Origin: Oceanidesulfovibrio marinus | GTDB taxonomy: Bacteria > Desulfobacterota > Desulfovibrionia > Desulfovibrionales > Desulfovibrionaceae | Assembly: GCF_013085545.1 (NCBI RefSeq) | Contig: NZ_CP039543.1 | Span: 3,441,322-3,505,321, forward strand | Reading direction: 5' to 3' | Length of the DNA stretch: 64,000 nt | Shown: one piece after another, positions 24,206-36,081 of the stretch | Position numbering within the stretch: position 1 is the stretch's first letter | How the letters are laid out: every line of letters starts with the position of its first letter | Position numbers and translations under genes: made by a program | The notes under the pieces: generated by a model | Told to the model about the DNA's origin: nothing | Database searches by the model: none | The model's input: only the letters and a program-made list of their open reading frames with translations

Positions 24206-25471
24206 ATGTGGGTGCAAAACAGGGGCAAATCCGCTGCATGGGGACAAAAGAGAGGCAAAAAATTGGAGCGCGTCAAGAAGTATACAGGGGTCTATGTATA
24301 CACGTCGACCACAAAACGACACCAGGGCCGTCCGGACGTCTGTTTTTACGTGACGATCAAGAACAATGGCAAGAAAGAACGCCACAAAATCGGCTGGCGA
24401 TCCGAAGGCATCGACGCCGCATACGCCTCGCAGAAACGCACAGAGCTCCAGAACCAGGCCCGCCTGGGTGAACAGCCACGCGTGCGTCCTAAAGAGAGCC
24501 TGACGCTGCAGGAGGCGTGGACGGTGTACTACGAGAACCACTGCCGCACCAACACCAAGAGGCCTGAAAAGCTTTTGTCGCGCTGGAGAAACCATGTCAA
24601 AGACGAACTGGGCGACAAGATGCTGAGCGAAATATCCCCCCTGGACCTGGAAGTCTTCAAGGCAACCCTGCAGGAGCGCGGCAAGAGCCCGAAAACGATT
24701 GAACTCACCCTGGCCCTGATCCGCAGCATTTACCGCAAGGTGGCGCGGTGGGATCTCTACCAGGGAAATATCCCGACAGACCGCATCGAGTGGCCGCGCT
24801 ACGACAACGCCCGCGAACGCTGGCTGACGCCTGACGAGGCGCGGGCCTTGCTGGAGGAAATCAGCAGACGCGGCTGGGATCCGCAAAAAATGTTTTGGCG
24901 CATGTGCATGATCGCCCTGTATACCGGCCTGCGCTTCAGTGAAATCGCCAACCTCAAGGGCGAACAGATGAATCTGGCGGCAGGCACCATACGCGCCCAG
25001 AACACGAAATCGGGCCGGGACCGTACAGTGTTCATTACCGGTGAACTGGACCAGGTGCTTCGGGATATTCCGCTGCACCCCGGCCACCTGGTCTTCCCCA
25101 GGCGCAGTGGAGGCGTCCATACAGTAGTTCCGGGCATCTTTCCAAGGGCCGTCAACGCCCTTGGATTGAACGACGGTGTGGACGACCGGAAACATAAGGT
25201 TGTCTTCCACACCCTGCGCCACACGTTCGGTAGCTGGTTGGCCATCTCCGGCGTCCCGCTGTACTGGATCTCCAAATTGATGGGACATTCCAATCAGGAT
25301 ATTACCGAACGGTACAGTCACCTTTGCCCTGGCATGCAGCGGCACGCGGTTGATTGTATTGATACAGCGCTTCATCATGGCATTACGCCTGGTCTCTGGT
25401 TTTCACTCGGAGAGCGCCAAAATACGAATCCAGATCCCGACGGCGGTACAGAACTCGCTTTCCCCGCTTGA
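24206..25471 (+). CDS. int: Tyrosine-family site-specific integrase of the prophage
   Basis: A 421-residue recombinase. The basic N-terminal arm-binding region (~20-75) is followed by the SAM-like core-binding domain (~98-185, LQEAWTVYYENHCRTNTK). The catalytic domain has Arg in ALYTGLRFSEIANL, the HTLRHTFGSW box, His in LMGHSNQDI and the nucleophile Tyr in ERYSHL. All catalytic residues are present, so the enzyme should be active in prophage integration and excision. The start is uncertain: ATG 24206 was used, and TTG 24263 is possible. The last 89 bp overlap the convergent excisionase-like gene. Confidence 0.93.
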   Translation: MWVQNRGKSAAWGQKRGKKLERVKKYTGVYVYTSTTKRHQGRPDVCFYVTIKNNGKKERHKIGWRSEGIDAAYASQKRTELQNQARLGEQPRVRPKESLTLQEAWTVYYENHCRTNTKRPEKLLSRWRNHVKDELGDKMLSEISPLDLEVFKATLQERGKSPKTIELTLALIRSIYRKVARWDLYQGNIPTDRIEWPRYDNARERWLTPDEARALLEEISRRGWDPQKMFWRMCMIALYTGLRFSEIANLKGEQMNLAAGTIRAQNTKSGRDRTVFITGELDQVLRDIPLHPGHLVFPRRSGGVHTVVPGIFPRAVNALGLNDGVDDRKHKVVFHTLRHTFGSWLAISGVPLYWISKLMGHSNQDITERYSHLCPGMQRHAVDCIDTALHHGITPGLWFSLGERQNTNPDPDGGTELAFPA

Positions 25472-27334: not shown

Positions 27335-27362
27335 TTGACAGTAAAGCCTTGGCGAGTATACA
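27335..27362 (+). promoter_or_regulatory. Sigma-70-type promoter for the ParB-like gene
   Basis: A perfect TTGACA (27335-27340), 16-nt spacer and TATACA (27357-27362), 51 nt upstream of the ATG at 27414. It would let this cargo operon be expressed independently of the phage repressor. Confidence 0.6.
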
Positions 27363-27413
27363 TGATGAACTGTTTTCAACCAAAATTTATGACAAACTCA
27401 GGCGGGACCAAAT

Positions 27414-28541
27414 ATGTGCGCCCAATGCGTTGACCCAATTCCTCCTCACCAAGCTTGCCTCATAGATCCTGACAAACTCATATTTGATTTGGATAACCCC
27501 AGACTGTCACTTCAATATGAGGTAAGTCCTGGGGCTTCTGAAAAAGATTTTATCTTAGCTTTGAAGAAATCTGCTGACCCAAGCGAGCTAGTTCTTTCAA
27601 TTGCTGCGAATGGTTATTTAGCCATTGAGCCAATGGTAGTTATGGGTAAAGGCCCAAACTACAAGGTTTTAGAGGGCAATCGTCGATTGGCCGCAATCAA
27701 ACTTCTCCGTAATCCAGCTCTTGCTGAAGAGTGTCGTATTCAACTTCCAGAAATTCCTGCGCATAAGGACCTCGGATTAGACGAGGTTCTTGTTTTTCGC
27801 GTAACCACGGAAGATGAAGCCAGAGCCTTTATTGGCTTCAAGCATATCAATGGTCCACACAAATGGGATGCAGTAGCCAAAGCCAAGTATGCTGCGGATT
27901 GGTTTGATCAGGGCAATATCAGTGTGGAAGAAATATCCAATCGTATTGGTGACTCTTTCGATACAGTAAGAAAATTGCTTTATGGCTGGAAGGTTCTCCA
28001 GCAGGCTAAGATTTTGGGTGTCTTTGAAATGGAGGACCGTCACCCTACTAGAAAATTTCATTTCTCTCACCTTTATGTGGCACTTACTCGAAGCCAAGTC
28101 CGAGAATACCTTGGCTTGTCCCCGAGTTTTACCCAAGCAGAAATCAAAGATAACCCAATCCCTGATGACAAAAAAACAGAGCTTGGGAATCTTTGTAATT
28201 GGCTTTATGGAAGCAAAAAAGACAACCTCAAACCACTTGTAGTATCCCAAAACCCAGATGTTAAAAATTTAGCCAATGTACTTGCTGACAAAAAAGCCCT
28301 ATCTCTACTGGAGACAGAAAGAGATTTATCTCTTGCCATCAGCGTTTTAACCCCTGATGATGTTCTTTTTATGAAGGCGTTGTATAAAGCTGAATCAGAG
28401 GCGAAAAAAGCCAGTGCCCATGTTCATACATACGATGGAACTCAATCATTATACGACACTGCACTAAATCTAAGAAATATAGCAACCTCAATTTGTACGA
28501 ACATGAAATTTAAACATGACGATCCTGTTCAGGAAGATTGA
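27414..28541 (+). CDS. ParB/Srx-fold protein of a possible restriction/defence module
   Basis: A 375-residue protein. Residues ~18-110 form a ParB/sulfiredoxin-like domain: LIFDLDNPRL, then IAANGYLAIEPMVVMGKGPN and VLEGNRRLAAIKLLRNP, the GNRR box of the family. A helix-turn-helix-like segment follows (ISVEEISNRIGDSFDTVRKLLYGW), then a helical C-terminal half. ParB-like domains can use CTP or act as nucleases, and they occur in defence islands. The GC content is well below the flanking phage genes and the codon use differs, which suggests recent acquisition. The next gene begins 3 nt after its stop, so the two are an operon. Confidence 0.78.
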   Translation: MCAQCVDPIPPHQACLIDPDKLIFDLDNPRLSLQYEVSPGASEKDFILALKKSADPSELVLSIAANGYLAIEPMVVMGKGPNYKVLEGNRRLAAIKLLRNPALAEECRIQLPEIPAHKDLGLDEVLVFRVTTEDEARAFIGFKHINGPHKWDAVAKAKYAADWFDQGNISVEEISNRIGDSFDTVRKLLYGWKVLQQAKILGVFEMEDRHPTRKFHFSHLYVALTRSQVREYLGLSPSFTQAEIKDNPIPDDKKTELGNLCNWLYGSKKDNLKPLVVSQNPDVKNLANVLADKKALSLLETERDLSLAISVLTPDDVLFMKALYKAESEAKKASAHVHTYDGTQSLYDTALNLRNIATSICTNMKFKHDDPVQED

Positions 28542-28544
28542 TTT

Positions 28545-29612
28545 ATGTTTCAGCCTCTTTTTGTTGAGACTCCAGCAGCCCGACTCGTTGATTGGATGGA
28601 ATTTAGAGCAATTTTGCATCACTACAACGAGTGTGCCCTTGATGAGCTTTGGGAATCAATGGGAATTGCTGAAGACACATATCAGGATGCCTTAGAAAAC
28701 CTTGACCCTGATGATGTCACGGCCATATGCAATGAAGATACGGAACGAGAACAAGTATTAGGCAGAATTGAAAGAGAAATTGATCGCCGAGTAGAAGCAT
28801 TACGTATAGATAGCACTCATTCAGCTTATCCATTTAAGCTTGAAGATAGTGCACTCCAATTCGAATTGAATAGTACAATCCCAGGACAACTATCTTATTT
28901 GCTTTGCTTACGACTAAGCCTTGCAATGTCTAATGTCCTCGATACAGATCAGGTTCCTGCAATTAAAAATAGTCTTGAACGAAATCTCTTTCAACATTGT
29001 GCCAACCTTGCAGCCGCTGGCTATCTAGGGGGAAAAACCTATGCCTTTGGTTGGCCCCGGCCTGACAAAACTGGATTACTTGATGCCCTTCGAGCTTTAG
29101 AAAAAGAAATGGGAAGTGAGGGAGTGGTTCGCCATATGGCACCGAAGGGTGCCCCTACACGCCCCAAAGATGACCAAGTAGATGTAGTTGCCTGGATTCC
29201 TCACCATGATGGCCCAGGTTGTGCGCTTACTTTATGGGGGCAAGTGGCTAGTGGTCTAGACTGGGAAGAGAAGCCATTAAGCACAGATAGAATAGAACGC
29301 TTCCGCGGTCGCTGGTATAAAGAAGCACCTTGCCTAAAACCTATCCGAGCTATGTTTGTCCCGTTTAGCTTGTTTGATGACGTATATGACCAAGATCCCA
29401 GCCACTATCTTGCGGCACTATTCGACCATACCAGAGAATATGGTATCATTTTCCATCGCTATCGCATTCCGCTTTGCGTTCAAAAGGCCTTCGATCGAGG
29501 CGACGAGGTCTCCGTAATGCGGTCTTTGCCCAAGCATGAGGTCGCTAGTCAATTACAAAACTGGTGGGAAGATTTCTTTGCTTCTTTGAACCACACATCA
29601 ACTGTAACATAA
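28545..29612 (+). CDS. Unknown protein, possible PD-(D/E)XK nuclease
   Basis: A 355-residue protein with no family I can name with confidence. The N-terminal half is helical and acidic. Around residues 205-250 the segment QVDVVAWIPHHDG, then ALTLWGQVASGLDWEEK is consistent with a PD-(D/E)XK nuclease core: an Asp on one strand, a Gln on the next, and a nearby Lys. This is an inference from pattern only. The gene is 3 nt downstream of the ParB-like gene, and its last 15 bp overlap the convergent adenine methyltransferase gene. The combination suggests a nuclease with a partner and a protective methylase. AT-rich, as its neighbours are. Confidence 0.5.
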   Translation: MFQPLFVETPAARLVDWMEFRAILHHYNECALDELWESMGIAEDTYQDALENLDPDDVTAICNEDTEREQVLGRIEREIDRRVEALRIDSTHSAYPFKLEDSALQFELNSTIPGQLSYLLCLRLSLAMSNVLDTDQVPAIKNSLERNLFQHCANLAAAGYLGGKTYAFGWPRPDKTGLLDALRALEKEMGSEGVVRHMAPKGAPTRPKDDQVDVVAWIPHHDGPGCALTLWGQVASGLDWEEKPLSTDRIERFRGRWYKEAPCLKPIRAMFVPFSLFDDVYDQDPSHYLAALFDHTREYGIIFHRYRIPLCVQKAFDRGDEVSVMRSLPKHEVASQLQNWWEDFFASLNHTSTVT

Positions 29613-30458
29613 TGGCCTAGCTTCTTCTGTTGGCACAGTCACCCATGGGGGCAAGATCAACAATTCTGTCGCCTTACGTTTAGTTTGAGCACTATAGCGG
29701 ATCGGAATTTGCGTTATGTGCGCCCAACTGTAAAGTTCGTGGATAATTGGGTGGTCATCGTAAGTTAACACCCAGGGTATACGCGAATGCGCACGCAGCC
29801 ATGTGGCCAAGGACTCATGTTGCTCATGACCGAATGCGTTCATATACAAATGCCTGCCTTGGCCCACATATGGGGGATCTAAGAATAAAAAAGGGGGGCG
29901 GGGAAGCGCCGCAAGAGCTTCGATAAAGTCAAGTGCATCCAAACAGCTTATACTAATACGGCTCTTCCATTTTGCCAGACGCAATATGCGCTTTTCTAAA
30001 TTTGCCTTGTTGTAACGTGCAGTGATTGGATACGCACCACTTTGATCAAGTCCGCCGATAGGTCGGCCACGCAATATTCCAGAACGATTTGTCCTGTTAA
30101 GAAAGAACGTAGCAAAACCTCTGGCTGCTAATTCATGATGCTCTGGCTTTTCCCATATAGCCCGTTGCTTGCTCCATTCCTCCACTGTAACAGGTGTATC
30201 CCGCAATAACTTAAGAAACTCTTCTGTCTCTCCAAGTATTGCCAACCACAAATCACAAATAGCTTGATCTACATCATTGAGCGCTAAGTGCTCTGCCTCA
30301 GCTGCATACAATAGCTTGACTGCTGCTCCTGCGCCTCCAGCGAATGGTTCTGCAAAGACTCGACCAGAATAATTGTTAGCGCGCAACAGAGCCGCAAGGT
30401 ATGGAGCGATAGCGCTTTTACCCCCTGGGTAGCGTAACGGACTAAAGATAGTTGCCAT
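29598..30458 (-). CDS. D12-class DNA adenine-N6 methyltransferase
   Basis: A 286-residue enzyme with the full D12 (Dam-like) architecture: FSPLRYPGGKSAIAPYL near the N-terminus (SAM-binding PGGKS), VFAEPFAGGAGAAVKLL, and the catalytic motif FLFLDPPYVGQG at ~195 (DPPY). It transfers a methyl group to adenine N6 in a specific DNA sequence, which is not deducible here. It is convergent with, and overlaps by 15 bp, the putative nuclease gene, and could protect self DNA from it. An orphan Dam role in phage DNA modification is also possible. Confidence 0.9.
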   Translation of the reverse strand: MATIFSPLRYPGGKSAIAPYLAALLRANNYSGRVFAEPFAGGAGAAVKLLYAAEAEHLALNDVDQAICDLWLAILGETEEFLKLLRDTPVTVEEWSKQRAIWEKPEHHELAARGFATFFLNRTNRSGILRGRPIGGLDQSGAYPITARYNKANLEKRILRLAKWKSRISISCLDALDFIEALAALPRPPFLFLDPPYVGQGRHLYMNAFGHEQHESLATWLRAHSRIPWVLTYDDHPIIHELYSWAHITQIPIRYSAQTKRKATELLILPPWVTVPTEEARPLCYS

Positions 30459-30824
30459 ATTTATTATTTACCACAGATAAATTGCCATGGCCATGAAAAA
30501 ATCACAGCTCCTAAATGACCATAACATACTTAATCCGCCAAGTTGATCATCAGCAGAGGTCTACCGCCTTGCCCTGACTAGCGGACCAGTCCGCGAGTTC
30601 TGACGTTCCGTATCTCCCGTCTTTGCCCTAACTGTTTTTACAATGTCAACGCACCTTATATGTGCGCAGTGCGTTGCGCGGAAGGTTGTCGCCAACGTCC
30701 ACACTATGGATGCATTCTCTACCGCGGGATAATCGCGTAAAGCGCTATCCCACCTATCACGCAGCTCAGGAACCAGAGGGGGCGCTTCGGTCTCGCACCC
30801 ACGCCGAAACGCCCCCTCCTATCC
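30459..30824. other. Intergenic region with hairpin and copy A of a direct repeat
   Basis: 366 bp without a credible gene. It holds repeat copy A (30595-30652) and, at 30776-30817, a strong hairpin with arms AGGGGGCG and CGCCCCCT plus an inner TTCGG/CCGAA stem, 8 nt past the stop of the antirepressor gene. The hairpin lacks a T-tract, so its terminator role is only possible. Confidence 0.5.
30595..30652. repeat. Direct repeat copy A flanking the antirepressor cassette
   Basis: 58 bp starting GAGTTCTGACG and ending AATGTCAACGC. It matches copy B (32094-32150) at roughly three quarters of positions with one gap, with conserved blocks at both ends and a central CTGTTTT. Confidence 0.6.
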
Positions 30825-32093: not shown

Positions 32094-32150
32094 GAGTTCT
32101 GACGCTCCGTGTTCCAAGCATTGCCACATCTGTTTTCGAAATGTCAACGC
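32094..32150. repeat. Direct repeat copy B flanking the antirepressor cassette
   Basis: 57 bp matching copy A at 30595-30652: GAGTTCTGACG, TCCGT, TTGCC, CTGTTTT and AATGTCAACGC blocks are shared in the same order and spacing, with one 1-nt gap. Confidence 0.6.
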
Positions 32151-32177: not shown

Positions 32178-33689
32178 TCATTTAGTTGAAGAAATAAAAA
32201 GTCCCACAAAAGCAATTATAGACATAAAAAATAACAAAATTTCAATTTTTAAGAAATTTATCAATTTCAATGTTTTTAATTTTTTATAGTTAATCTTTAC
32301 CAGCGAGTAATACAACATGCTTGACATTATTGCAAAATCAAAACCAAATGTAGGTACTAATAAAACAGCAAGAGCTGCAGGCGCTAAAGTGTGAAGTTCT
32401 TGCCTGTCTTCATCTGTTACCTCATCCGAAAAGAAAGATTTTGCTGTTAAATGAAGTCCTAAACAAAACAAATTAGGAGCAATTGCAAACTTAACAATAT
32501 CACGCAAGTAAACAGTATCTGTTCTAACAAATAAAAAAAATACAGCACAAATAACAAAGAAAAAAAAGCAATAACGGGCCGTACGTGGGTTTGTGACATA
32601 TTTCTCTACAAGTTCTGGCTCCTTTGACAAATCACCTGTTTGTGTCATTATATTGTTCTCGGCATAATAAACAGACGGAGAAATTAGAAATGCTGCATTT
32701 ACCATAGAAGTAACAGAAGTAGTTACGAATGCTGTATCAATACGTTTATACTTCTCTTTATCTGATAACTTTTTGGAGCACATGAACATCTCATATGGAC
32801 TTCCGGGTATATCAACGATAACGACCACCACCAAAACCATACTCAAGTATATTAAGCTACCGAGATCGGCTTCAGTACCATTTGGATAACTAACGCCGGA
32901 AAAAAAAGTACTGTGCGAAAACAACATATTTCTTATACAATCTATGTTTATCCAAAAGTTATTAAATGATAAATCGACTGATACTTTCGAATAAGAATTA
33001 GACACAGCTAAATAAAAAATCAACGCTGGCGATACGATATTAACAGATCTCAAGGCTAATAGAACGATACTCTGTCCTCTCCACCTGCAACTACTTTTTG
33101 ACCATACCGCAACAGCTCTTTCTGATCCAATGATCACGACTACAGCTATCATAAAACACAACAGTGAATACAGGTGGACACTATAGTCCCCGTCCCACTT
33201 AATACTAAAAATACGCGTGCCTAATGAAACTTTTGATCCTATAACAGCACCCAACGCAACACTCGCAAGAAGCGTCCCCACACTCGCACGAATACCAATC
33301 CTTAGAGGGCCCTTGAACGAATCAAGCAAATTCTGTCGTATAGATTTACCATTTTTACAAATTACTATTGAAAGAAACAGCGTCACTACAGACGTAGCCA
33401 AGGCCGCTATAGGGAGGTTATTACCAAGCTTCCCTCCAGCATACCCATATGAAAAAAATGTAGCTAGACCTATTCCTGGGGCAACGACCAAGCCAGACTT
33501 CGTCAAGATAGAACTAAGGAAGGTTCCAAACGCCATTAAAGCGAACGATACACATACAATGACACCAAAATTGATACCCAGAGGCCCTGAGACCAGTGCA
33601 GCTATTGTAAATGGAGCATAAAATACAACAATTGTCAGGCTGAGGGCCATTAAACTAAAGTCAACTCCAGAATCATTATTTTCTTTCAT
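32178..33689 (-). CDS. NCS2/AzgA-like nucleobase (purine) permease
   Basis: A 503-residue polytopic protein with about 12-14 hydrophobic segments. The VAPGIGLATFFSYGYAG segment near residue 70 matches the APGMGLNAYF signature of AzgA/PbuG adenine-guanine-hypoxanthine permeases, and the overall length and later TEADLGSLIYL-like region also fit. It should import purine bases by proton symport. It is extremely AT-rich for this genome (many Lys, Ile, Asn codons ending in A/T), 8 bp downstream of a guanine deaminase gene, so the pair forms a purine uptake and use operon within a prophage. The sequence is rather divergent from typical AzgA. Confidence 0.68.
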   Translation of the reverse strand: MKENNDSGVDFSLMALSLTIVVFYAPFTIAALVSGPLGINFGVIVCVSFALMAFGTFLSSILTKSGLVVAPGIGLATFFSYGYAGGKLGNNLPIAALATSVVTLFLSIVICKNGKSIRQNLLDSFKGPLRIGIRASVGTLLASVALGAVIGSKVSLGTRIFSIKWDGDYSVHLYSLLCFMIAVVVIIGSERAVAVWSKSSCRWRGQSIVLLALRSVNIVSPALIFYLAVSNSYSKVSVDLSFNNFWINIDCIRNMLFSHSTFFSGVSYPNGTEADLGSLIYLSMVLVVVVIVDIPGSPYEMFMCSKKLSDKEKYKRIDTAFVTTSVTSMVNAAFLISPSVYYAENNIMTQTGDLSKEPELVEKYVTNPRTARYCFFFFVICAVFFLFVRTDTVYLRDIVKFAIAPNLFCLGLHLTAKSFFSDEVTDEDRQELHTLAPAALAVLLVPTFGFDFAIMSSMLYYSLVKINYKKLKTLKLINFLKIEILLFFMSIIAFVGLFISSTK

Positions 33690-33697
33690 TTTACAAC

Positions 33698-34168
33698 CTA
33701 ATACATATGTTTCTTTTCAATTTCAGCCCACTCTTGGAATACCTTAATCGATTCAGAATGCATTAGCTGTAGGAGTGGCAATCTACGTTTAACATTTTCC
33801 ACAGCAATTTCATTATAAATATCTGCATCGTCAAATCCGATACCAGCAGCATCATGCCGTGTGTTTCCATAATATATTTTATCAATCCTTGCCCACCAAA
33901 TGGCAGAAAGACACATTGGACAAGGTTCACAGCTTGTAAAAATAATACTTCCTGAAAGATTAAACGTTGCAAGACGTTCACAGGCCATGCGTATTGCAAC
34001 TATCTCAGCATGTGCTGTTGGATCATTTTTGCTCACGACACAATTCATGCCCTCCCCAACTATCTCATCATTTTTCACGATTACAGCTCCGAAGGGCCCC
34101 CCCCCACAAGCGAGGCTTTTTTTTGATAGGTCTATAGCCCGCTGCATATAATTTATTTCATTTGCCAC
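33698..34168 (-). CDS. guaD: Guanine deaminase (GuaD-like, cytidine deaminase fold)
   Basis: A 156-residue zinc enzyme, the same length as Bacillus GuaD. It has GGPFGAVIVKNDEIVGEGMN, the zinc-ligand His and catalytic Glu in PTAHAEIVAIR, the two Cys ligands in TSCEPCPMCLSAIWWARI, and the GuaD-type tail AGIGFDDADIYNEI. It would convert guanine to xanthine in the cytoplasm. The GTG start at 34168 has AAAGGAG six nt upstream. It is the first gene of a two-gene operon with a purine permease; both are AT-rich, suggesting transfer from a low-GC donor. A tRNA or cytosine deaminase role is less likely given the C-terminal motif. Confidence 0.82.
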   Translation of the reverse strand: MANEINYMQRAIDLSKKSLACGGGPFGAVIVKNDEIVGEGMNCVVSKNDPTAHAEIVAIRMACERLATFNLSGSIIFTSCEPCPMCLSAIWWARIDKIYYGNTRHDAAGIGFDDADIYNEIAVENVKRRLPLLQLMHSESIKVFQEWAEIEKKHMY

Positions 34169-34466: not shown

Positions 34467-35258
34467 CTAATTGAAAACCAAGGACCGGCGCGGCTCGAAG
34501 TTGCTCACCAGCACTTCCTTGGCCTTTGGCCGCGTGCCGTTGCTGCAGGAGTAGCGCACCGTGACCGGCTCGATCGTCATACCGGCGTACAGTTCACGGA
34601 TCAGGGGCGTATCGGCCTGGCTCAGGATGAAGCGGCCTTCGATGGCGCGCAATGTTTCGGCAAGCCTGGCGTGGTCGTCTTTGGAGAACAGGCCCTTGCC
34701 GTAGACGTTCTCCGTGCCAACGTATGGCGGGTCCACATAGAACAGCGTGGTGGGCCGGTCGTACTTGCGTATCACTTCGTCAAACGGCAGCCGTTCGATC
34801 AGCACTCTGGAGAGCCGCAAGTGCGCGGCGGACAGCTCTTCCTCCATGCGCAGCAGGTTGAGCCGCGGCGGCTGCACTGCCGACGTGCCGAATGTCGGGC
34901 TTGTGATCCGGCCGCCGAAGCACATCTTCTGCACGTAGTAGAAACGCGCCGCCCTCTGGATGTCCGTGAGCAGTTCGGCGGGCAGCCTGGTTTCGCGCTC
35001 GAACTCCGCGCGGCTGCAGAGCACGTATTTGAAGTGGCGCAGAAACTCTTCGAGATGGTTCTGCAACACGCGAAACAGGTTCACGACGTCTTCGTTGATG
35101 TCGTTCAGCACCTCGACTTTCGAGGGTCCTTTGCGGAACAGCGTCCAGGCACCGCCGCAGAAGGGTTCGCAGTAGCAGGTGTGGTCCGGGAACCGGGAAA
35201 CAATCTCTTTACACAGGCGGCTTTTACCGCCCATCCAGCCAGCGAGTGGCGATTTCAC
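34467..35258 (-). CDS. Second D12-class DNA adenine-N6 methyltransferase (phage Dam type)
   Basis: A 263-residue enzyme with SPLAGWMGGKSRLCKEIVS (SAM-binding GGKS), CYCEPFCGGAWTLFR, EVLNDINEDVVNLFRVLQ and catalytic FYVDPPYVG at ~180. The length and layout match phage-borne Dam-like methylases found next to tail fibre genes. The start is GTG 35258, with AAAGGA nine nt upstream; longer reading frames upstream are unsupported. It probably methylates a short site such as GATC, though specificity is not readable. It is unrelated in detail to the methylase at 29598 and has normal phage GC. Confidence 0.88.
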   Translation of the reverse strand: MKSPLAGWMGGKSRLCKEIVSRFPDHTCYCEPFCGGAWTLFRKGPSKVEVLNDINEDVVNLFRVLQNHLEEFLRHFKYVLCSRAEFERETRLPAELLTDIQRAARFYYVQKMCFGGRITSPTFGTSAVQPPRLNLLRMEEELSAAHLRLSRVLIERLPFDEVIRKYDRPTTLFYVDPPYVGTENVYGKGLFSKDDHARLAETLRAIEGRFILSQADTPLIRELYAGMTIEPVTVRYSCSNGTRPKAKEVLVSNFEPRRSLVFN

Positions 35259-35433
35259 AGTCAGTTGTCCTTTACGGTTGGGCCTGCCGCCTGCTACGTA
35301 GGGCTCCGCTCTTGGCCAACCCGAGAGCCCTACGGCGTAGCGGCTTCGGCCGTGGTCCGGTGCGCGAACACCGGGCCGGTGGGGCGTTGCACCGCCCCGC
35401 CTGCGCCTCCGATTACAAACTCCTGGAGATGTT

Positions 35434-36081
35434 ATGCCGACATCCATCCCCTCTACTTTCTACATGTTTTGCCAAAGAAATCACCTGATGGTGAATAACC
35501 TCCAATACACTGGAGGTATTACTTCCAACGGAATTGCCACAGCGACAGTTAGCCCCGAAGCTACAGCTTCATACCTTTCAGGAGACATGCCATACATAGG
35601 ATTTGGTCCAATCCATGGCCGCGAAAATATCATTCCATCCTACTTTCATCTTTCAGTTCTCTCAGAATATTACGTTGAATATGCCCTAGAATATGTACGG
35701 AGTGGACATTTTAAGACATATCCATCTCGCGTTACATGTTTCTTTGCTTTCGATGATATGGACTTTTGCCATAAGGCATCCGCCATATATGGATGGAACT
35801 TGAACGAAGTTAAAATATTCAATCTCGTACCATCGCCTCTGAATAAATATGCACGTTGCGACATGGAAATTGTAACAATCATGCGTGCTTTTCAGCCTTA
35901 CGGTACTCCATTCGAGTTGTTCGAGACTGCTGCACATCGCTACTGGTCTGGCCAATCAGGCTTCGGAGATATCTTCCATAGATTCCAAGTCAACGAGCCG
36001 CCCCCAGAGCGAGAGCCAATCTGGGAAACCCTGATTGAAGGTCGACTTCAGCTTGTCAATGGCGACCAGCCTGCGTGTTAG
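35434..36081 (+). CDS. Cargo protein of unknown function, possibly ADP-ribosyltransferase-like
   Basis: A 215-residue protein that starts 5 nt after GGAG (ATG 35434). It begins with a Thr-Phe-Tyr-Met strand and contains YPSRVTCFFAFDDMDFCHKAS, then VKIFNLVPSP and a later AAHRYWSGQSGFGD. The order, short strand, then Ser-Arg/Phe-Ala-Phe, then a YW-G segment, is reminiscent of small ADP-ribosyltransferase-fold families such as DUF2441. This is a weak, pattern-based suggestion. The gene is on the plus strand, opposite to the late genes, is lower in GC than its neighbours, and is placed between tail-fibre genes and a methylase, where phages often carry accessory toxin or defence genes. Confidence 0.5.
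   Translation: MPTSIPSTFYMFCQRNHLMVNNLQYTGGITSNGIATATVSPEATASYLSGDMPYIGFGPIHGRENIIPSYFHLSVLSEYYVEYALEYVRSGHFKTYPSRVTCFFAFDDMDFCHKASAIYGWNLNEVKIFNLVPSPLNKYARCDMEIVTIMRAFQPYGTPFELFETAAHRYWSGQSGFGDIFHRFQVNEPPPEREPIWETLIEGRLQLVNGDQPAC

Follow-up and report, generated by a model that had tools for sequence, protein, structure and literature searches.

Which function do a ParB-like protein, a predicted nuclease and an adenine methyltransferase serve when their genes lie side by side in a prophage? The question is raised by positions 27335–30458 of a 64,000-nucleotide stretch of Oceanidesulfovibrio marinus DNA (the window; NZ_CP039543.1, positions 3,441,322 to 3,505,321, forward strand). Three open reading frames (ORFs) were found at the positions given in a preliminary description of the stretch: 27414–28541 (+), 28545–29612 (+) and 29598–30458 (−); the convergent 3' ends of the second and third overlap by 15 bp (29598–29612). 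The trio is read here, with a probability of roughly 0.6, as a restriction-modification-like antiviral cassette carried by the prophage, in which marked DNA would be spared and the ParB-like protein would act as a nucleotide-driven sensor; it looks like restriction-modification logic in an unnamed form, with a ParB-like switch as the constant partner. The grounds are the predicted folds, a conserved active-site pattern, tight linkage, apparent co-diversification and exchange of the marking enzyme; from these we infer, each in turn, DNA cutting, blocking by the mark, the identity of the nucleotide, a two-protein complex and phage arrest.

Results

Predicted fold and putative active site of the middle protein

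Product of 28545–29612 (+), 355 aa: The AlphaFold2 model, made with 43 aligned rows (predicted local distance difference test, pLDDT, 87.4; predicted template modelling score, pTM, 0.90), predicts with good confidence a winged helix followed by a PD-(D/E)XK domain; the protein matches PHROG 14650 (E = 1.6e-38). The top Foldseek match was MspJI (E = 1.5e-3, probability 0.93), whose active site is a D...Q variant. In a structural second look (VIA), a re-alignment of the candidates that Foldseek had supplied, the first ten rows were nucleases of one fold, PD-(D/E)XK: N.BspD6I (Z 6.4, root-mean-square deviation 4.5, 154 aligned); FokI (6.0, two entries); MspJI (5.8, two entries); EcoT38I (5.4); BsaWI (5.2); AspBHI (5.1); SduA of Shedu (4.9); PfoI (4.8). 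After these and a helicase chain aligned to the N-terminal part came Can2 (Z 4.5) and NucC (Z 4.4). No one family stands out in the list as the closest, and a family missing from it is not thereby excluded. By the re-aligned rows, the nuclease domain spans approximately residues 108–323 (28866–29513, +) and the winged-helix region approximately residues 5–107 (28557–28865, +); on the latter, chains of BRR2, MukE-MukF, ORC, FOXO4 and APC2 were aligned with Z 2.9–4.5, the aligned parts of which we take to be winged helices.

A putative active site is formed by D209, D213, Q233 and K243 (29169–29273, +); among 94 deduplicated rows D213 was kept in 94, Q233 in 92, D209 in 92 (E in 2) and K243 in 88, and R82 and R305 were kept in all 94. 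D213 and Q233 may be the metal-binding pair of a D...Q active-site variant, with K243 as a displaced lysine. The preliminary description had noticed a QVDVVAW...GQVASG...K pattern and had taken it for a possible nuclease core: D213, Q233 and K243 are present in it, and the structure prediction gives a PD-(D/E)XK-like fold, with moderate matches, over the residues named.

No NCBIfam or PADLOC model matched the window protein, and Pfam gave only a chance-level match (MgtE_N, E = 0.37); Mrr_cat matched one of 43 members (E = 0.0039), and no HNH family was found in Pfam for the window protein (E up to 1) or for the 43 members (E up to 0.01). There were no matches in a sequence search of solved structures, none of the model in the viral structure library at E ≤ 0.001, none of the window protein in annotated phages, and none confirmed in a viral scan with this single protein as query; against plasmids, 3 records were matched by the window protein and 1 by the protein of locus L001 (loci are numbered with L throughout).

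The two flanking proteins

ParB-like protein (27414–28541, +), 375 aa: A ParB nucleotide-binding domain, a helix-turn-helix region and a helical C-terminus are predicted (AlphaFold2; pLDDT 91.9, pTM 0.83). The best Foldseek matches of the model were the nucleotide domain and helix-turn-helix of ParB, KorB and Noc (E ~1e-5); PHROG 3694 was matched (E = 9.2e-75), and the Pfam scan gave no family. The GNRR box described earlier was found again as EGNRR (residues 87–91; 27672–27686, +), a Box II (GxxR) nucleotide-binding motif invariant in 44 of 44 aligned rows, the window included, and the fold predicted for the N-terminal part is that of ParB; H144, G147 and W151 are likewise invariant. Box III (cytidine triphosphate/magnesium) of canonical ParB, which in the chromosomal proteins is of the ENxxR type, was not seen by eye in the alignments. 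A canonical chromosome-partition ParB was ruled out: TIGR00180, 19.0 bits; curated cut-off, 58.45.

Methyltransferase (29598–30458, −), 286 aa: The convergent gene with its 15-bp overlap encodes, as had been described, a D12-class N6-adenine DNA methyltransferase (Pfam PF02086, E = 1.3e-19; PADLOC PD-Lambda-5_B, E = 4.4e-99 over residues 1–279 of 286).

Occurrence in phages and genomes

Twelve records of annotated phages matched the ParB-like protein. WPhi, vB_EcoM-12474III and Pseudomonas D14A carry the ParB-like gene, the middle gene and a convergent methyltransferase gene in the order of the window; the methyltransferase of these three is a C5-cytosine enzyme and not D12. In phage 12474III the trio is located between the portal gene and gene A, an interval described as the P2 defence hotspot in passages of PMC9519451.

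Viral scan: The ParB-like alignment alone served as query, and the best 80 of 121 confirmed relatives were examined. The nuclease gene follows the ParB-like gene directly in 79 of 80 loci, the remaining locus (L066) stopping inside the ParB gene. A methyltransferase was found within 1.5 kb of the pair in 76 of 80; the other four contigs (L066, L085, L093, L115) end in the pair or 40 bases past it. The co-occurrence with a D12 methylase that had been suggested thus held for a methyltransferase, and its class is not always D12. The layout is convergent downstream in 58 (C5 36, D12 22; median gaps −4 and 0 bases for the two classes, one gap being 1,394), codirectional downstream in 14 and upstream in 4. 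As background, with the nearest methyltransferase per locus set aside, the loci contained 432 further gene-like ORFs, 3 of which were methyltransferases of the classes sought; chance neighbours were ruled out on these figures (76 of 80 against 3 of 432). The 80 loci are not independent, several being close relatives or repeats of other loci (L064 = L009, L087 = L010, L092 = L008, L103 = L011; L056 contains L013 and L057 contains L014).

Genome scan: With the nuclease alignment as query, 172 pattern matches were obtained and 41 loci were confirmed (L015–L055), under titles of proteobacteria, actinobacteria, Bacteroidota, Chloroflexi, Planctomycetota, Armatimonadetes and others. The ParB-like gene adjoins the nuclease gene or is fused to it (L039) in 41 of 41 of these nuclease-selected loci; in L044 a 93-aa ORF stands between the two, and the ORF of the nuclease has a length of 177 aa only. 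In the fused case (L039 4807–6930, a Brevundimonas assembly) both parts form one 707-aa ORF with ambiguous bases (X), and a true fusion is uncertain. Methyltransferase classes were assigned with small seed profiles (D12 4, C5 4, SPPY type 1 sequence), so that other classes would go undetected; the partners were D12 in 12 loci, SPPY-type in 10, C5 in 8, the phosphorothioation genes dndBCDE in 6, D12-like pieces in 1 (L026) and none in the examined stretch in 4 (L031, L033, L045 and L038, the last at a contig end with a DndH relative upstream). The D12 gene of L037 is ~0.9 kb off, and the C5 gene of L042 is separated from the pair by ~3.2 kb, in which a large P-loop ORF lies. The trio arrangement goes beyond chance because it recurs in other phages and genomes.

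In L026 (6954–7649, a metagenome assembly) D12-like pieces without an open frame converge with an open ParB–nuclease pair. Two pairs per locus were found in L004 (1863–8618) and L045 (1–6981). One of the doubled pairs follows a large P-loop protein, that of L004 matching PADLOC Helicase_II / MzaC, in resemblance to Z1-type restriction clusters.

E. coli: The WPhi-type trio was present, with at least 80% of the query covered, in 103 of 5,426 complete genomes; in the rows listed it is annotated as 'ParB N-terminal domain-containing protein', 'hypothetical protein' and 'DNA cytosine methyltransferase'. A further 36 genomes match the WPhi trio at 90–95% identity; in seven of the 36, which were listed, the methylase alone is covered (93%), e.g., NZ_CP027362.1 3223691–3224628, and here the ParB–nuclease pair may have been exchanged beside a constant methylase.

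Phosphorothioation as partner

Six genomes of gammaproteobacteria have the pair in convergent orientation to dndE, dndD, dndC and dndB: Marinobacterium (L040), Salinibius (L041), Marinomonas (L043), Vibrio (L048), Thalassotalea (L049) and Enterobacteriaceae bacterium LSJC7 (L054); Vibrio and Enterobacteriaceae belong to the gammaproteobacteria. PADLOC names of the L048 genes: DndE (E = 9e-59), DndD (3.3e-294), DndB (6.1e-177) and DndC (0). A 227-aa ORF separates pair and dnd genes in L043. Upstream of the pair, a DndH relative was seen in L038, L040, L041, L048 and L054, and in the last four the pair is placed between DndH and the dndEDCB genes; the setting is similar to that of DndI in Salmonella. 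In passages of a survey of Dnd neighbourhoods (PMC10853773), no ParB protein other than DndB is named for such loci.

Replacement of the marking enzyme

Four marking classes were thus found beside the ParB–nuclease pair: N6-adenine (D12), C5-cytosine, SPPY-type and the phosphorothioation cluster dndBCDE. An orphan methylase with unrelated neighbours was ruled out: the pair is constant and the methylase class varies.

For trees and distances 125 pairs were collected and reduced to 94 by deduplication at 85%. Pairs with a nuclease ORF below 240 aa or a ParB ORF outside 300–599 aa were left out; dropped were L016 (719-aa ParB ORF, start too early), the fused L039, those with split ParB (L008/L092 and L014/L057) and the truncated copies L031, L033, L044 and L093. 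The tree of the 94 nuclease proteins was built by a quick method and leaves 24 of 91 inner branches open. The 85 labelled rows require a minimum of 9 changes of mark class on it, against 33–45 in 100 label shuffles; mark classes have therefore been handed down over long periods, with several replacements. The phosphorothioation rows form one branch of seven (L038 included; support 100) within a larger group of C5 and unlabelled rows. The distance matrices of ParB-like protein and nuclease are correlated with r = 0.90 (500 permutations reach ≤ 0.06). This suggests that the two co-diversify; shared ancestry of the host elements can explain part of r.

Discussion

Mechanism and its alternatives

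In the proposed mechanism, the methyltransferase would modify its sites in the resident DNA; cutting would fall to the winged-helix PD-(D/E)XK protein; and the ParB-like protein would be a nucleotide-binding DNA clamp that loads on DNA and holds or licenses the nuclease. On marked DNA the ParB-like protein would let go or hydrolyse nucleotide, and no cut would follow; unmarked incoming DNA would be cut. That the ParB partner is constant speaks against a nuclease acting on its own, and by analogy DndI, a ParB-like nuclease beside dnd genes, appears to be the best mechanistic model for the pair.

A wider proposal is put forward tentatively, as one slightly more apt to fail than to hold: the pair may be a widespread, unnamed, mark-agnostic restriction module, that is, one self/non-self reader re-coupled several times to N6-methyladenine, 5-methylcytosine, putative SPPY amino methylation and phosphorothioation. 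Since the re-couplings are several and the chemistries unlike, such a reader would sense no single chemical group and rather something common, e.g., a ParB clamp whose loading or sliding is blocked at marked sites.

Several observations weigh against the restriction-modification-like cassette. The nuclease model had no Foldseek match at E ≤ 0.001, its structural matches are moderate (Z ≤ 6.4, where Z < 8 can mean a common arrangement), and K243 is not invariant (88 of 94), stands 10 residues past Q233 and is off the canonical spacing. The cassette is rare near the organism of the window: it was found in 1 of 149 genomes, the window's own, and in 3 of 394 genomes of the phylum, again with the window's own included. 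L004 has two pairs and one methyltransferase, and L045 two pairs and none, in the stretches examined. A nuclease that acts freely should not tolerate the broken methylase beside the open pair of L026, unless the assembly is faulty.

It is these last loci that speak for a mark acting as trigger and not as shield, in which case the mark on host DNA would activate the pair, as in SspE, and the pair would attack invaders: without a working methylase the L026 pair would be inactive and harmless, and L026 together with the second pairs of L004 and L045, which fit the restriction-modification-like cassette worst, would be easier to explain. The activity of SspE is reported to rely on phosphorothioate, and PbeABCD was antiviral only where phosphorothioation was present, according to passages of PMC6459918. 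Four marking classes with one pair are, however, easier to understand if the mark merely blocks engagement of the DNA, and DndI is active without the mark (PMC11662687); activation by the mark is thus considered unlikely.

Lower again is the chance of an abortive system, in which the pair would sense phage interference with the methylase and kill the cell. Such behaviour is implied for PD-λ-5, which shares its methylase family with the cassette, has a ParB domain related to that of the cassette and is termed an 'RM+Abi system' by Vassallo and colleagues (PMC9519451). Against it, the PD-λ-5_A match is confined to the ParB region, and the cassette adds a dedicated nuclease, 0 of 43 members of which are matched in PADLOC. 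Relative to the antiviral cassette preferred here, it is very improbable that the genes serve the phage, the methylase shielding phage DNA and the ParB-like protein and nuclease taking part in its maintenance, replication or packaging: the window copy lies in a prophage, the ParB-like gene was seen on the 80 viral contigs examined and some ParB relatives partition phage-plasmid DNA, but the pair stands beside dnd defence genes in 6 genomes and the trio in the P2 defence hotspot, and we know of no phage housekeeping role that fits a conserved nuclease with an interchangeable mark.

Relation to known systems

The named systems closest to the cassette are PD-λ-5 and DndI. PD-λ-5, an E. coli prophage system protecting against phage (Vassallo et al. 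2022; PMC9519451), likewise has a ParB-like protein beside a methylase of the PD-Lambda-5_B family, both in prophages. The best A profile, however, covers only the ParB region of the window protein (residues 20–162 of 375; profile 10–161 of 466); the PD-λ-5_A profiles are longer (428–592 positions, one 169), and at most residues 17–199 of the cassette protein were matched. The nuclease has no PADLOC counterpart: 0 of 43 members match any PADLOC model, those of PD-λ-5 included. A third conserved gene is present in the window and in 79 of 80 ParB-selected loci, and the PD-λ-5 matches of PADLOC name A and B only. The A component not being found at full length, the window was not filed under PD-λ-5; its cassette probably works in a related way. 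In Marinobacter phage AS1 (L005 3977–6442) a 486-aa ParB-like protein, covering 4–381 of 473 positions of another PD-Lambda-5_A profile, is directly followed by a PD-Lambda-5_B methylase, and no nuclease relative was found in this locus, which offers itself for comparison where the added subunit is concerned.

DndI, in passages of PMC11662687, is a ParB-like domain with an HNH nuclease, adjoins dndBCDE and is cotranscribed with dndFGH in Salmonella; it is active without the mark, and the mark stimulates its ATPase, by which, in the authors' proposal, DndI is released from self DNA. Common to both is a ParB-like nucleotide-binding domain coupled to a nuclease beside dndBCDE. DndI is one protein (DUF262 + HNH), whereas the cassette has two and a PD-(D/E)XK nuclease, and most cassette copies seen pair with a methylase and not with phosphorothioation. 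The HNH (DUF1524) nuclease that marks DndI and GmrSD is replaced in the cassette by a PD-(D/E)XK-like model. The Type IV systems GmrSD and BrxU resemble the cassette in a ParB-like NTPase and a nuclease acting by DNA modification (PMC4619093, PMC12839542); in these sources GmrSD cuts modified DNA with an HNH nuclease, whereas the cassette pair has a marking enzyme alongside. PbeABCD, in passages of PMC6459918, is a restriction cassette found with either phosphorothioation or methyltransferase genes; its proteins are others (PbeA with helicase motifs, SMC-like PbeC), and 'ParB' is absent from the main text.

PDC-M38, a PADLOC candidate, shares the ParB-like protein, which PDC-M38A matches over residues 51–338 (E = 1.3e-23); the PDC-M38A profile has 715 positions and the nuclease matches no PADLOC model. 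Compared with Type II restriction-modification, a methyltransferase is linked in 76 of 80 viral loci, the other four ending at contig ends, and an endonuclease fold and active site are predicted (D/D/Q/K conserved, moderate Z). The PD-(D/E)XK fold is common to the cassette nuclease and to restriction enzymes such as MspJI and AspBHI, which are not known to have a ParB partner; MspJI is modification-dependent. AspBHI differs in being modification-dependent according to the title of its structure entry.

No paper under the name PDC-M38, none naming the trio and none joining 'ParB N-terminal domain', cytosine methyltransferase and prophage was found in searches of the open-licence PubMed Central literature; 'phage wphi' and 'ParB Srx' were not found in the papers searched there. 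'ParB' is absent from the main text of the DefensePredictor paper (PMC13092281), whose predicted REase and MTase systems sit in figures and supplement. The earlier remark that no named system of exactly this composition was known needs a correction, since parts of the trio have named kin: the methylase matches PD-Lambda-5_B, and the ParB-like protein in part PD-Lambda-5_A and PDC-M38A.

Promoter and neighbouring genes

Candidate promoter of the ParB–nuclease pair (27335–27362, +): TTGACA-16-TATACA, sigma-70 type, in agreement with the consensus at 10 of 12 bases. It was not listed by the tool scan, in which T is obligatory at the last position; our own scan, set to a minimum of 5 matches of 6 for the first hexamer and 10 of 12 overall, gave 5 sites on the + strand of the window. 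The promoter had been called clear; the site exists but is plausible and not clear.

Setting: The GC content of the trio is low (ParB-like gene 0.419, middle gene 0.453, methylase 0.476; window 0.614), and the host element is a contractile-tailed prophage. On the left are an integrase gene (24206–25471) and a CII-like regulator; on the right tail sheath, tape measure, head protease, portal and terminase genes. Three adjacent AT-rich genes in a prophage had been described, and coordinates, GC values and the phage genes on both sides agree with this. A small remnant element was ruled out, since tail, head and terminase genes follow the trio. Comparison with an empty site, made with a single congener, gave one partial left-flank match.

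Other features: A second D12 methylase gene (34467–35447, −; Pfam E = 4.5e-32) belongs to the same prophage and is ~4 kb away from the cassette; the locus scan of the window found no ParB-like match beside it. A second AT-rich block (32178–34168, −; GC 0.34–0.43) encodes a 503-aa hydrophobic-looking protein without Pfam family and a deaminase (Pfam dCMP_cyt_deam_1 and MafB19-deam), possibly another accessory cargo pair. Imperfect direct repeats (30595–30652 and 32094–32150; 17 nt at 94%, 30 nt at 80%) bracket a Bro-N antirepressor block, by which the two AT-rich cargo stretches are separated, and may be a site of cargo exchange.

Implications

ParB-fold switches are known from chromosome segregation and, lately, from defence nucleases such as DndI. 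PADLOC has no model of the nuclease, and its annotation would show such loci as methylases or partly as PD-λ-5. The cassette is tractable, a whole relative being present in phage WPhi and in E. coli genomes. If the reading given here is true, a ParB-like protein that stays with its predicted restriction enzyme while the self mark is exchanged would make it possible to study, with just two proteins, the reading of chemically unlike DNA marks by a nucleotide switch.

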